IMG/VR virus record: IMGVR_UViG_3300017528_000179
Span: 1-63,695 of that record
Length of the DNA: 63,695 nt
From: a virus
Direction: 5' to 3' (one strand)
Shown: positions 15,862 through 35,739 of the stretch, piece by piece
Numbering within the stretch: the first letter of the stretch is position 1
How the letters are laid out: each line of letters begins with the position of its first letter
Notes under the pieces: model-generated
The model's input: only the letters and a program-made list of their open reading frames with translations
What the model was told of the DNA's origin: nothing
Database searches by the model: none
Translations under genes and position numbers: made by a program

Positions 15862-15948
15862 TGGCGGAGAGGTAGACGAATCGAACGCCCGTCTTTTCAG
15901 ACGCCTCCGGGTTCGAACCGGATTGCCCACCATTGAGCGGTACCCTCC
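15862..15948 (-). tRNA. tRNA-Ser(CGA)
   Basis: A class II tRNA with a hairpin variable arm (GTCT-GAAA-AGAC). The anticodon loop TTCGAAC gives CGA and looks much like a T loop. The CCA is encoded, and acceptor pair 7-66 is not paired. Confidence 0.75.
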
Positions 15949-16207: not shown

Positions 16208-16281
16208 TGGCAGGAAGCGTAGGAATTCAACCCACTCCCCTCGGGTTGGAGCCGAGTGTGCTGGCGTAACACTTGCAACCT
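16208..16281 (-). tRNA. tRNA-Trp(CCA) with mismatched acceptor stem
   Basis: The anticodon loop CTCCAAC gives CCA, and the D stem is GTGT/GCAC. The CCA end is encoded. The acceptor AGGTTGC/GCTTCCT has U-U at both 4-69 and 5-68; pairing outside this bubble is perfect and even extends two pairs beyond the end. Confidence 0.75.
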
Positions 16282-18894: not shown

Positions 18895-19318
18895 AAACTT
18901 TGGTCGACCTGTACCCAGGCTTTTGTAAGCTATAACTTGACAGATTCTTTCGAAGTGTCAACCCATGGCTTGACGTTCATTCCTCTAAGCCCCCACCCGA
19001 GCTTCGACGGCTTAGACTTGCCTCAGCTCCTACTTGGGGTTGCATCGAGCGTGGAGTGCCCCGACATGATTGTACACATTCATACAAATCTTTCGACTTG
19101 TACATAAACGTGCAATCGGGCCTTACCCGTCACCTTACGGTGCCTGCATCTTCCACAGCGCTCTGTCTATGATGGCCTGAAGTTCCTCGCGGGGTTCGGA
19201 CCCACGCGAACGTCTAGTCTACCAAACTTTGAACTTTCGCCCCCTGTATAGTCTTACCTGGATGTTCAAGGTACGCCTTGACGTCAGCTGACGCTTTGAG
19301 GGAGCCACCCGTTCAAAC
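18895..19318 (-). ncRNA. Gene-free, highly structured segment in the tRNA array
   Basis: This 420-nt stretch holds no convincing coding frame or canonical tRNA. On the minus strand it contains many strong inverted repeats: TACAAGTC-GAAA-GATTTGTA (8 bp, tetraloop), CTAAGCC with GGCTTAG, CACC-GTAA-GGTG, a T-arm-like CGTGGG-TCCGAAC-CCCGCG, and TTGACA with TGTCAA. The density of GNRA-type loops and long stems suggests a large structured RNA or several small ones. It could also be decayed tRNA material. Confidence 0.5.
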
Positions 19319-20241: not shown

Positions 20242-20837
20242 ACAGAAAATTAATAGGCACGCTAGTCAGATTGTAGGTGACGTCGAGTTATGCCTTTATC
20301 TCGATGACCATCTGAAAAGCTACAGGTTGTTGACCGGCGCTCTACCATTAAGCTAAGTGCAGCCGAAGCCACACGCGGGACTTGAACCCGCACCTCCGGT
20401 CTCTTCCGCCTGCCAGTTATTCATGCAGGGCTTAAATCCGGGCGGATACAAAGCCTCCGCCGGGGCTTATCCCGCTCGTGGGCGGGTGAATCAGTCTGTC
20501 CCTTACCAGCATGCGAGACTCGCTCGTCCGGGTGCGACCCAAAGGCGATTAACTGATTCTGTTCTAGAACATCGTTTGCTTATCTGTTATACTCATTGGC
20601 CTGAGTTGGTACATTTTAAGACTGTACTGTGGTCTGCAATTTTAGGCCGTTGCTGGGGCCATCAATCGACATGGCTTGACTGAATTCTGAGATATGCTCT
20701 CAGTTTATTTCAGCTGATACCATCATTGCCTGTGCTCAAAAAGAGCGAGCCGATTGTTACTCGACTTACGCCCCATTTAAGGAACAGCGAGATAATTTCG
20801 AGCCGTTACGCGCCTTCGGCGGTGTACTCGAAAAAGA
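20242..20837 (-). ncRNA. Large gene-free ornate structured region (about 590 nt)
   Basis: No coding frame or full tRNA is found. The region is packed with perfect inverted repeats (plus-strand view): GAATCAGT with ACTGATTC enclosing CGAG/CTCG and GGGT/ACCC hairpins, CCCGC/GCGGG, ACTCA-TTGGCC-TGAGT, GGCC/GGCC, nested CTGAA(CTGAG-CTCAG)TTCAG, GCTC-AAAAA-GAGC, CGCC-TTC-GGCG. The minus-strand 3' part has a T arm (GCGGG-TTCAAGT-CCCGC) with no matching acceptor or anticodon arm, and a tRNA-like 5' half beside it. Size and location next to phage tRNAs recall the GOLLD and ROOL classes of large phage RNAs, but identity is not shown. Confidence 0.55.
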
Positions 20838-21034: not shown

Positions 21035-21111
21035 TGGGGTGACCCATGGGGCTCGAACCCATTATAGCCAGATTCACAGTCTAGCACGTCACCTGTTTCG
21101 TCTGAGCCACC
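21035..21111 (-). tRNA. tRNA-His(GTG)
   Basis: Anticodon loop CTGTGAA. It has the histidine hallmark of an extra G at -1 opposite C73, acceptor GTGGCTC/GGGTCAC, encoded CCA. Confidence 0.88.
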
Positions 21112-28362: not shown

Positions 28363-28574
28363 TACGAGACCGGAGACGCATTGCAAATAAGCTGATGCGT
28401 ATTCAAGAATTTCTCAAGAATCAAAGTCCAATTAATTGGGAAGCGGTCTATGATGTAGACCGTTTGCGCCGGTCGGCGTCTTATGACGCTGATTGGAAGT
28501 GGGAAGGATACGCTAGTGAGCTAGAATGGGCTCGTGCTCAGTCTAGTACTAAAGTACCATTGACTCAAAACTAG
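28359..28574 (+). CDS. Small basic helical protein (71 aa)
   Basis: ATG 28359 overlaps the preceding stop (ATGA). The protein is Arg/Trp-rich and helical. No family recognised. Its last codons carry the operator of the next promoter. Confidence 0.6.
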   Translation: MIRDRRRIANKLMRIQEFLKNQSPINWEAVYDVDRLRRSASYDADWKWEGYASELEWARAQSSTKVPLTQN

Positions 28575-32878: not shown

Positions 32879-33096
32879 TGGCAACGCAGCGGTCCCAAAA
32901 GTCTTGGCCAACGTATTATAAATATCCACCGCTGGCTCCGGTTAAGCCAGCCATTGACCCAAATAAATTGATACGTCTTAAAAAGGCTGGGGAGATAGCG
33001 CACGAGAAGCTTGAACGACTGCCGAAAGAAATTGCTCGGTTGTATTTGAAACAAATAACTCAACTGCAAGATTTAATAGAAAGGTTATCGAAATGA
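32878..33096 (+). CDS. Small basic helical protein (72 aa)
   Basis: ATG 32878 overlaps the prior stop (GTGATGG). Proline-rich start, then a Lys-rich amphipathic helix. No function known. Confidence 0.6.
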   Translation: MATQRSQKSWPTYYKYPPLAPVKPAIDPNKLIRLKKAGEIAHEKLERLPKEIARLYLKQITQLQDLIERLSK

Positions 33097-33509
33097 AAAT
33101 TAAAGAATGCCGTAATGCTAGACCAATCCTCACCATCCGTTTCAAGTGTGGATGCCGATTGAAACTGAAAGATAAGCAGGTCTTCCTTATCCTGCCCAAG
33201 CTACCAGGACCCAGCCGAGGCAATCGTGAGCGCTTGCTTGGATTCATCCATGAAGGCGTACTCAAAATTTTCCGCAATGGCAAAGATTTCCTCCGCGTCC
33301 GTTCATGCTACGGCATTAACGTACACTTGCTAGCGTCAGCAGCCAGCCTAGGCTTCGACCGCGTCTATTGTGACCTTCCTATGCGAGGAGGCTTCCTGCC
33401 GCCAATCTGCCGCTTACTGGACCGTACACCATTCCAATATGGGCAGGCGGGTTTCGAAAGCCAGGTCGGTTTTACGCCCAACGAATTGGTCGAGGTACCA
33501 GACCTATAA
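33093..33509 (+). CDS. Basic hypothetical protein (138 aa)
   Basis: A Leu/Arg-rich alpha-beta protein with a FKCGCRLKL beta hairpin near the N terminus. It overlaps the previous gene by 4 bases and ends just before an operator-promoter element. Confidence 0.6.
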   Translation: MKIKECRNARPILTIRFKCGCRLKLKDKQVFLILPKLPGPSRGNRERLLGFIHEGVLKIFRNGKDFLRVRSCYGINVHLLASAASLGFDRVYCDLPMRGGFLPPICRLLDRTPFQYGQAGFESQVGFTPNELVEVPDL

Positions 33510-33511
33510 TC

Positions 33512-33555
33512 GGTACCAAAGTACTATTGACGGAAAATCGAATCAGGAGCATACT
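33512..33555 (+). promoter_or_regulatory. Operator plus promoter of the tRNA-like RNA
   Basis: GGTACCAAAGTACT (33512-33525), TTGACG (33527-33532), 17 bp, CATACT (33550-33555). The predicted transcript starts near 33562, about 35 nt before the tRNA-like element. Confidence 0.75.
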
Positions 33556-33596
33556 GTTTAAGAAGTGAGGAGAAGTAGGCCACCGAGTTATACGGT

Positions 33597-33754
33597 GTTC
33601 CCTTAGTTTAGCGGACAGAATGCGTGAGGACCCCTTTGGGGTTCTAATGTTGCTTCGGTCTCGGGTTCCGGCCAGAACCCTAGTTGGGTAGGCCACTCGA
33701 TGAAAAGAGATACGAAGAGCACACGAGACACTGGTTCGAATCCAGTAGGGGACA
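33597..33754 (+). ncRNA. 158-nt tRNA-shaped RNA
   Basis: The 5' GTTCCCT pairs fully with 3' AGGGGAC (one G-U). A T arm ACTGG-TTCGAAT-CCAGT is perfect, and a D-arm-like GTTT...GAAT follows the 5' strand. Instead of an anticodon and variable loop of about 30 nt, there are about 110 nt with hairpins GGACCCC-TTT-GGGGTTC and GGGTTC-GAACCC, and a 6-bp GTCTCG/CGAGAC stem abutting the T arm. The 3' end is A-GCA, not CCA. It is alone in the right arm, with its own promoter; a CACCG/CGGTG hairpin lies just upstream. It is not a tmRNA of known size. Confidence 0.6.
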
Positions 33755-33796
33755 GCATACTTTGAAGTAACGAGGCGTCTATGGCACGCCTACCTC

Positions 33797-34910: not shown

Positions 34911-35119
34911 GCGACCAACACTCGGGCCCGTACGACGATGATAAGTGCCACTTTTGTGGCAAGAGTGCAAAGAATGGATGGAAGCACACTGCAGGCTTTC
35001 AGCGCAGGGAAACTTATGCAGGTGTGGGCCCATGGCTCGATGCCTGCCAGTCGTGCGCAGAAAAGCCATATGAGCAGCCAAAACAATCTCAAGGTGAAAA
35101 TAAAGGAGAAACAATATGA
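34907..35119 (+). CDS. Small zinc-ribbon protein (70 aa)
   Basis: GTG 34907 overlaps the previous stop. CHFCGK near residue 13 and CQSCAE near 49 are a typical zinc-ribbon or ClpX-type zinc-binding spacing. Polar tail. Confidence 0.6.
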   Translation: MSDQHSGPYDDDKCHFCGKSAKNGWKHTAGFQRRETYAGVGPWLDACQSCAEKPYEQPKQSQGENKGETI

Positions 35120-35739
35120 GTGATAAAAAAGAAGTACCGCGAGGTTTTCACGTTCATTCAAATGGTGGGGGATTAGTACAAGATACCTGCACAGTTGATT
35201 CATCCGTTTATGTAGGTCCCAACGCTCGGGTCTCTGGCAACGCTCAGGTCTATGGCAACGCTCGGGTCTATGGCAACGCTTGGGTCTATGGCAACGCTTG
35301 GGTCTATGGCAACGCTTGGGTCTATGGCAACGCTCGGGTCTATGGCGACGCTCGGGTCTATGGCGACGCTCGGGTCTATGGCAACGCTTGGGTCTCTGGC
35401 GACGCTTGGGTCTCTGGCAACGCTCGGGTCTATGGCGACGCTCAGGTCTATGGCAACGCTTGGGTCTCTGGCGACGCTTGGGTCTCTGGCAACGCTCAGG
35501 TCTATGGCAACGCTCGGGTCTATGGCAACGCTTGGGTCTCTTCTCCTCTTTACCTCCAAGGCACAAAACACGCATTGACAAATTCTAAGTATGGTCATAT
35601 TGCTATTGGTTGCCACGAGCATACGTTTGAATATTGGCAGGAACATTACAAAGCGATAGGTCGAGCTGAAGGTTACACCAAAGAAGAGATTGAGCAATAT
35701 GGTCTCTTCATCCAAATGTTTTCTAAAATTGGAAAATAA
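35116..35739 (+). CDS. Hexapeptide-repeat beta-helix protein (207 aa)
   Basis: Residues about 33-145 are 18-19 tandem copies of the six-residue unit (N/D)-A-(R/W/Q)-V-(Y/S)-G. This predicts a left-handed or related parallel beta-helix with one unit per face, close to the polymer-like repeats of some phage and bacterial transferase-fold proteins. N-terminal 30 and C-terminal 60 residues are non-repetitive; the latter is helical (EYWQEHYKAIGRAEGYTKEEIEQYG). The DNA repeats are nearly identical 18-mers, so copy number is probably unstable. Confidence 0.8.
   Translation: MSDKKEVPRGFHVHSNGGGLVQDTCTVDSSVYVGPNARVSGNAQVYGNARVYGNAWVYGNAWVYGNAWVYGNARVYGDARVYGDARVYGNAWVSGDAWVSGNARVYGDAQVYGNAWVSGDAWVSGNAQVYGNARVYGNAWVSSPLYLQGTKHALTNSKYGHIAIGCHEHTFEYWQEHYKAIGRAEGYTKEEIEQYGLFIQMFSKIGK
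35215..35541 (+). repeat. 18-bp tandem coding repeat
   Basis: About 18 copies of an 18-bp unit, consensus GGCRACGCTYRGGTCTMT. Two third-position variants and an RRC switch (AAC/GAC) alternate in blocks, suggesting expansion by slippage or unequal recombination. Confidence 0.85.

Follow-up and report, generated by a model that had tools for sequence, protein, structure and literature searches.

The window analyzed here is the whole of an IMG/VR virus record, 63,695 bases in length. On its plus strand, positions 33597-33754 match the Rfam tRNA model (RF00005) from the first to the last model position (38.3 bits against a cut-off of 29; E 1.2e-6 for 451 nt, with permissive filters), describing a tRNA cloverleaf with a 95-nt insert at the anticodon loop. 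The locus comprises the following features:

33512-33525 (+): operator-like palindrome GGTACCAAAGTACT, one of five window sites fitting RGTACNNNDGTWCB
33527-33555 (+): sigma-70-like promoter TTGACG-17-CATACT, with TTGACG at 33527-33532, 17 nt, and CATACT at 33550-33555
33581-33597 (+): putative leader hairpin CACCG-AGTTATA-CGGTG, whose last base is G1 (read from the sequence)
33597-33603 (+): 5' strand of the acceptor stem, GTTCCCT (tRNA model, alignment and model R1)
33606-33621 (+): D arm GTTT-AGCGGACA-GAAT, with A14, G15, G18 G19 and A21 (tRNA model)
33623-33626 (+): 5' strand of the anticodon stem, CGTG, four pairs (tRNA model and covariation)
33627-33721 (+): 95-nt insert in place of the anticodon loop, an 8-bp hairpin and a long branched arm (folding against shuffles)
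33722-33725 (+): 3' strand of the anticodon stem, CACG (tRNA model and covariation)
33730-33746 (+): T arm ACTGG-TTCGAAT-CCAGT (tRNA model and alignment)
33747-33754 (+): 3' strand of the acceptor stem, AGGGGAC (33747-33753), and discriminator A73 (tRNA model and alignment)
33755-33796 (+): conserved tail GCATA...AACG-AGGCGT-CTATGGC-ACGCCT-ACCTC, with no encoded CCA (column identity with the other sequence types)

A tRNA body with a large insert

The operator, promoter, acceptor, D arm and T arm that a sequence-only reading of this DNA had named were all found in place. U8, A14, G15, G18-G19 and the T loop TTCGAAT are all present in the window RNA, and C48 is able, by eye, to face G15; the RNA thus has the acceptor, D and T arms and the consensus tertiary positions of the tRNA family (RF00005). 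The tRNA model match, together with relatives that share the same architecture, supports the earlier view of the locus as a tRNA mimic. The 158-nt extent given in that reading stands for the shell at 33597-33754, but the conserved unit runs on to 33796 and includes a tail hairpin that had been left out. Similarly, GCA does follow A73 (33754-33757 together with it), but belongs to a conserved AGCATA and is not a damaged CCA.

With Rfam default filters, 21 tRNA matches were obtained in the window, none of them at 33597-33754. ARAGORN run without introns missed the RNA locus, and the 28 tRNAs that it called all occupy the minus strand between 15.4 and 20.9 kb; run with introns, it made one extra call, at 33596-33756, as a tRNA-Leu(aag) with an 86-nt intron. 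Across these searches this is the sole RNA gene called in the right arm, as had been claimed. Separately, Rfam models revealed three tRNA-like genes on the minus strand that ARAGORN missed, at 21038-21110, 16211-16281 and 15866-15948 (42.5, 31.4 and 26.4 bits, the last as tRNA-Sec). We also observed that window positions 35116-35739 encode a protein with many tandem hexapeptides (VYGNAx...), and that its DNA aligns at 66-82% over about 300 bases with acyltransferase or hypothetical genes of Streptococcus, Curvibacter and Ruminococcus phages.

For the full-length RNA the folding energy is -60.7 kcal/mol, lower than in 199 of 200 shuffles (z -3.02); for the isolated insert it is -38.8 kcal/mol (z -2.94), a value reached by 1 of 200 shuffles and by 2 of 1000 in a repeat run. 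The minimum-energy fold of the full-length window copy differs from the cloverleaf, which reaches -55.9 kcal/mol when enforced, a cost of 4.8 kcal/mol. In the lowest-energy fold, the acceptor and T arm are retained, whereas the D arm and anticodon stem are replaced; the fold contains an alternative helix, GUCUCG/CGAGAC, and the D-stem pair probability is 0.003. The copy in a related phage, G024, is likewise not a cloverleaf by energy alone. The cloverleaf assigned to the window copy is supported by its match to the tRNA consensus and by the relatives, and not by minimum-energy folding.

An operator-like palindrome adjoins the promoter

We found that TTGACG-17-CATACT, which has 9 of 12 consensus bases, is the sole promoter-like site within a scanned stretch of 601 bases that surrounds the RNA (0.3 expected in shuffles) and that it directly adjoins the palindrome. 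A scan with the pattern RGTACNNNDGTWCB gave nine strand matches at five places in the window (28545, 31735, 33512, 34165 and 49094), compared with 0.57 expected, and none of 100 shuffles reached nine. ATTGAC comes directly after the palindrome at 28545, 33512 and 34165, and this extended pattern has five matches against 0.04 expected. The related record G002 contains two such palindromes, each again followed by ATTGAC, and the combination is therefore a promoter type of this phage group. RGTACNNNDGTWCB corresponds to the LexA-box form reported for Nostoc (PMC3091678). Either the host LexA or a phage regulator could read the operator; an S24 peptidase or S24-type repressor was found in none of the 12 phage records examined. 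The G024 copy has a promoter of its own, TTGACA-17-TAAGCT, 88 nt upstream of the RNA. Together, the operator palindrome and the sigma-70-like site support the earlier claim that the RNA has its own regulated promoter, and transcription would be driven from 33527-33555.

RNAs of the same design occur in other phages

A terminase alignment of the window and G002 led to 47 relatives, which were fetched. BLAST of the RNA over these relatives and the window returned only short pieces outside its own copy, nearly all of them T arms. However, ARAGORN with introns, run on the relatives' loci, uncovered one more RNA of the same design, identical in sequence in G024 and G044. The acceptor of this RNA is CCCCCCG and its anticodon stem UCCG/CGGA; its insert measures 63 nt and its variable loop is AGAC. 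It shares AGCGG in the D loop, AGCATA and the tail hairpin with the window RNA, and its G024 copy scores 46.5 bits with the Rfam tRNA model. G024 and the window phage are fairly closely related (95 tblastn matches, identity up to 91%). A shape scan covering 126 of 128 sequences produced four long shapes, of which two are ordinary called tRNAs and the others are the window and G024 copies.

Searching IMG/VR with a pattern that fixed the T loop, AGCATA and GAGGCG alone, and then with a slightly looser one, gave ten loci in all. An acceptor partner and D arm 106-110 nt upstream, together with the full tail, were present at six of these (G024, G044 and G051-G054). The records G051-G054 carry a single sequence type, here called the L129 type, and come from a ~186-kb phage lineage. 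None of the 34 other pattern hits (four IMG/VR loci and 30 bacterial-genome loci) has an acceptor partner and D arm; the 30 bacterial-genome loci, which came from the looser pattern and have neither of the two, were all rejected as chance matches. Thus, a search for two conserved ends around a variable middle, which the sequence-only reading had proposed, gave exactly that. With the Rfam tRNA model, the L129-type RNA gave no match at E up to 1. Just 11 window ORFs match the G052 record (tblastn, 1e-5), so the G052 phage is either unrelated to the window phage or very distant from it. The genomic settings also differ: the window and G024 copies lie in the right arm with their own promoter, whereas the L129-type RNA sits inside a tRNA array, between tRNA-Arg and tRNA-Ile.

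We scanned the covariance model R1 over 34 records. Of the 47 terminase relatives, 26 were included, mostly the ones with longer contigs; the other records were the window, G001, two from jumbo phages and four from the pattern search. Strong matches were found in seven records, with nothing between 50 and 73 bits. When R1 was rescored on four loci, the three types reached 112.7, 109.6 and 105.8 and the next best 46.8; the three types are themselves the training rows of R1, so only the score gap is informative. The distribution is sporadic, since among the window and the 26 TerL relatives scanned, the RNA is carried by the window, G024 and G044.

Several other routes were followed. There were no relatives of the neighboring protein at 33093-33506 in IMG/VR, no relatives in a DNA polymerase search and no matches to an exact 5' pattern, and blastn of the RNA against phage genomes gave, among the matches listed, only T arms of ordinary tRNAs. 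A T-arm pattern led to ordinary tRNA-Arg genes of two ~300-kb phages; the 3' half of the window shell is nearly identical to these genes and its 5' half is similar. This suggests, rather than proves, that the window shell was derived from a tRNA-Arg(UCU).

The stems covary and the 3' tail is conserved

The family rests on three independent sequences, and in their trimmed alignment 97.4% of the cells are paired and 9 of 26 pairs are changed on both sides, which none of 500 shuffles reach; sliding the partners brings the pairing below 50%. The acceptor, D, anticodon and T stems all covary, with both-sided changes in three of the four anticodon-stem pairs. These results bear on the idea that the RNA is a decayed tRNA that acquired junk. 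Such a remnant would account for the missing CCA and anticodon and for the departure of the window copy's energy-based fold from the cloverleaf, but two-sided changes keep the stems in three sequences, the tertiary positions are intact, and phages unrelated to one another have the tail and the insertion point in common. The sequence-only reading had allowed for relatives with a normal tRNA, of which this copy would be a decayed form; instead, the relatives found keep the odd architecture, with compensatory changes in the stems. We consider decay extremely improbable.

The insert occupies the same position in all three types but differs in sequence, measuring 95 nt in the window and 63 and 68 nt in the other two types. 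Folded without constraints, the L129 type adopts the cloverleaf as its minimum-energy structure; its anticodon stem bears two hairpins, and their loops share 7 complementary bases (0 of 1000 shuffles). The G024 and L129 inserts are only mildly better than shuffles, of which 51 and 76 of 1000, respectively, are as good. Loop-loop pairing is weak in G024, at 4 nt in the predicted loops (20 of 1000 shuffles; 6 nt in another hairpin by eye), and missing from the predicted loops of the window copy (1 nt, 829 of 1000 shuffles). As the pairing is strong only in the L129 type, we did not keep kissing loops as a general model for the insert.

All three types run on into AGCAUA and a conserved hairpin, AACGAGGCG-loop-CGCCUACCUC, in which AACGAGGCG and CGCCUACCUC are invariant. 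The presence of this hairpin in all three types indicates that the RNA, or its precursor, reaches at least 33796. Body identity between any two types is 41-43 of 62-63 columns. From A73 to the end of the tail, 37 of 43 columns are identical between the window and L129 types, as opposed to 30 of 43 between the window and G024 (30 and 31 of 43 for the other pairs); the tail is therefore the best-conserved part between the window and L129 types (37/43 versus 42/62 in the body). The gene may have passed between two of the phage groups.

As a separate observation, the tail hairpin (AACGAGGCG..CGCCTACC) also occurs without a tRNA shell in two other records, at L080 3000-3038 (G016) and L084 14321-14359 (G017), on the 3' side of another strongly folded tRNA-array region.

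Conservation of the tail raises the alternative of a small regulatory RNA on a tRNA scaffold, in which ...CUACCUC could pair with ribosome-binding sites while the shell provides stability. The tail is invariant over both hairpin strands in the three types and is the best-conserved part between two of them, and ...CUACCUC resembles the anti-Shine-Dalgarno sequence of 16S. However, CCUC can also pair with GAGG inside the tail, and the same tail is found without the shell in G016 and G017. We regard this alternative as improbable.

The RNA lacks an anticodon loop and an encoded CCA

None of the three RNAs has a 7-nt anticodon loop with U33 and an anticodon, the loop being replaced by 63-95 nt. 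AGCATA stands at the 3' end in all three types and CCA is not encoded, although enzymatic addition is possible; by comparison, the ordinary tRNAs called in the window (28/28), G024 (32/32) and G052 (11/11) records end in CCA in 71 of 71 cases. With no anticodon and no CCA, a role in translation is unlikely.

A normal tRNA could still arise if the insert were an intron removed by splicing. The anticodon loop is the favored site of tRNA introns, and ARAGORN indeed reads the locus as a tRNA-Leu(aag) with an 86-nt intron. We considered every cut that leaves a 9-nt 31-39 segment, ten in each of the three RNAs, and found that 0 of 30 give a 31-39 pair with U33 and a purine at 37, so that no usable anticodon loop is restored. 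Self-splicing introns are far larger than 63-95 nt, and the inserts have no mutual sequence resemblance. An interrupted tRNA is thus a very improbable reading.

Another possibility, part of which the sequence-only reading had named as a decoy for tRNA-targeting nucleases, is that the RNA acts as a decoy or sponge, titrating a host factor that recognizes tRNA bodies, such as a defence nuclease or a tRNA-sensing immune protein, and thereby letting the phage escape. The sporadic, accessory distribution, the RNA's own promoter, and an elbow and acceptor that are intact but without a translation function are all consistent with this. Host attack on tRNA anticodon loops is well known (PMC7824862), but it is precisely this usual target that is missing here, which makes a decoy for anticodon-loop nucleases less likely. 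Moreover, the acceptor stems differ among the three copies, so no single isoacceptor is copied. We judge a decoy to be unlikely, if less so than a regulatory RNA.

Other tRNA-related RNAs in these phages

The window contains further tRNA-related RNAs on its minus strand. Positions 18896-19225 match bacterial class A RNase P RNA (RF00010) over the full model length at 81.2 bits, against a cut-off of 100. RNase P RNA was observed within the phage tRNA array in 14 of 29 records searched, four of them over the curated cut-off, and our literature search found no earlier report of a phage-encoded RNase P RNA. Positions 20313-20412 hold a permuted tRNA mimic, in which a T arm and an acceptor closed by a TTCG tetraloop are followed by a D arm. 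This mimic is a weak match to YrlA (RF02553; 23.9 bits, E 0.007 for 399 nt), a model that also matches weakly in 12 of 14 control genomes, and it has a homologue in G016 and G017 (32.7 bits). A 156-nt 'tRNA-Phe with insert' in G016 and G017 was rejected as a member of the present family because it has a different, YrlA-like arrangement. The RNase P RNA and the YrlA-type mimic are separate findings, and the phage is one with an unusually rich repertoire of tRNA-related RNAs. In the ~186-kb phage G052, we observed a permuted tmRNA (RF04321, 61.4 bits, over cut-off) at L179 18620-18888 and a tRNA with anticodon CUA at L184 16626-16700.

Proposed role of the RNA

Sequence and covariation establish the cloverleaf with its replaced loop, the absence of an encoded CCA, the conservation of the tail, and the occurrence of three types in different genomic settings. 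On this comparative evidence, the RNA is a member of a small, sporadic, conserved phage RNA family and is neither a decayed tRNA nor a tmRNA; we are highly confident of the family of three sequence types and of its architecture. In Rfam 15 only the tRNA model matches it, and our searches of the open-access literature showed no such family.

The explanation that we favor, and consider somewhat more likely than not as a whole, is that the locus encodes a trans-acting phage RNA of about 160-200 nt with a scaffold role, consisting of a complete L-shaped tRNA shell, a folded and fast-changing domain exchanged for the anticodon loop, and a conserved hairpin tail. This RNA would be transcribed from the regulated promoter, processed by RNase P at G1 in the manner of a tRNA and, having no use in decoding, would persist as a stable RNA. 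The shell would serve as a scaffold for processing, stability and protein docking that carries the variable arm and the conserved tail. Action in trans is most likely, since the settings of the window and L129 types have, by eye, no neighboring gene in common. With its elbow and acceptor intact, the RNA may be recognized by proteins that process or bind tRNAs, and the variable insert together with the conserved tail suggests a scaffold with an exchangeable arm. In the least certain step, the shell would dock on proteins, of either the host or the phage, that recognize the elbow or acceptor of a tRNA in order to modify or process it or in defence, and would present the arm and tail to them, working like a Y RNA or the tRNA-like domain of tmRNA and not as a tRNA. 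The chances of such a scaffold or docking mechanism are, in our estimate, about even. A more speculative version, which we offer tentatively, is a class of phage tRNA mimics in which a fixed platform of shell and tail for docking and maturation carries, in place of the anticodon loop, an effector that is exchangeable and evolves rapidly. Under an SOS-like or phage operator, such an RNA would capture or block a tRNA-binding protein of the host, which could be a factor in defence or in RNA processing.

RNAs with a tRNA body but no anticodon are known in few forms, namely tmRNA, Y RNA and the T4 stable RNAs. Phages carry many tRNAs, tRNAs are attacked by host defences, and this family has a recognizable signature and several carriers. 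If the RNA binds an elbow-reading host protein, it would represent RNA-based phage interference with tRNA biology.

Comparison with known systems

GOLLD and ROOL are described as large, ornate phage RNAs near tRNA islands, with GOLLD linkers sometimes holding tRNAs (PMC12286853). They are several times longer than the window RNA, and neither matched the window at gathering thresholds or the RNA stretch at E up to 10. The tRNA-associated theta ribozymes are structured elements that abut the 3' end of phage tRNAs (PMC10879173); in contrast, the tail described here has one 6-bp hairpin, and in the G024 and L129 types we saw, by eye, no sequence that could pair with GCATA to form P1.

The bacterial Y RNA YrlA (RF02553) is a non-coding RNA with a tRNA-like domain of D, T and acceptor parts plus another structured part (PMC8394870), and in this combination it resembles the window RNA. 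However, the tRNA-like domain of YrlA joins a basal stem formed from the RNA's own 5' and 3' ends, whereas the window RNA has both ends at the acceptor and its extra domain attached to the anticodon stem. RF02553 gave no match to the window RNA at E up to 10 and none to the RNA types at E up to 1, and a search for phage-encoded Ro60/Rsr (TROVE) partners found the protein in 0 of 19 phage records.

Like the window RNA, tmRNA has a tRNA-like shell in which a large insert replaces the anticodon region, and a tmRNA relative was among the readings proposed from the sequence. The large insert between the D and T domains would fit a tmRNA or permuted tmRNA relative, and G052 does have a permuted tmRNA elsewhere (RF04321, 61.4 bits). 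However, the D arm of the window RNA is intact, no tmRNA model matches (E up to 10 and 1), and there is no G3-U70: the 3-70 pair is U-G, C-G and C-G in the three types, never G-U. The proposal was accordingly abandoned, and we give kinship with tmRNA the lowest standing of all the alternatives, with next to no probability.

T4 rnaC (species 1 RNA, T4 70908-71046) is, with bacterial Y RNA and tmRNA, among the closest known RNAs. It is a stable phage RNA encoded beside tRNA genes; its long middle is not of tRNA type, and close to the 3' end it contains a perfect T arm, CCGGG-TTCGAAT-CCCGG. It differs in being without a tRNA-type D arm (by eye), in the weak acceptor pairing of its fold and in having no AGCATA tail, and R1 does not match the T4 rnaC stretch (L188 1409-1547) at E up to 10. 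To our knowledge, T4 rnaC is a stable phage RNA without a known function, and the family described here may help to explain it.
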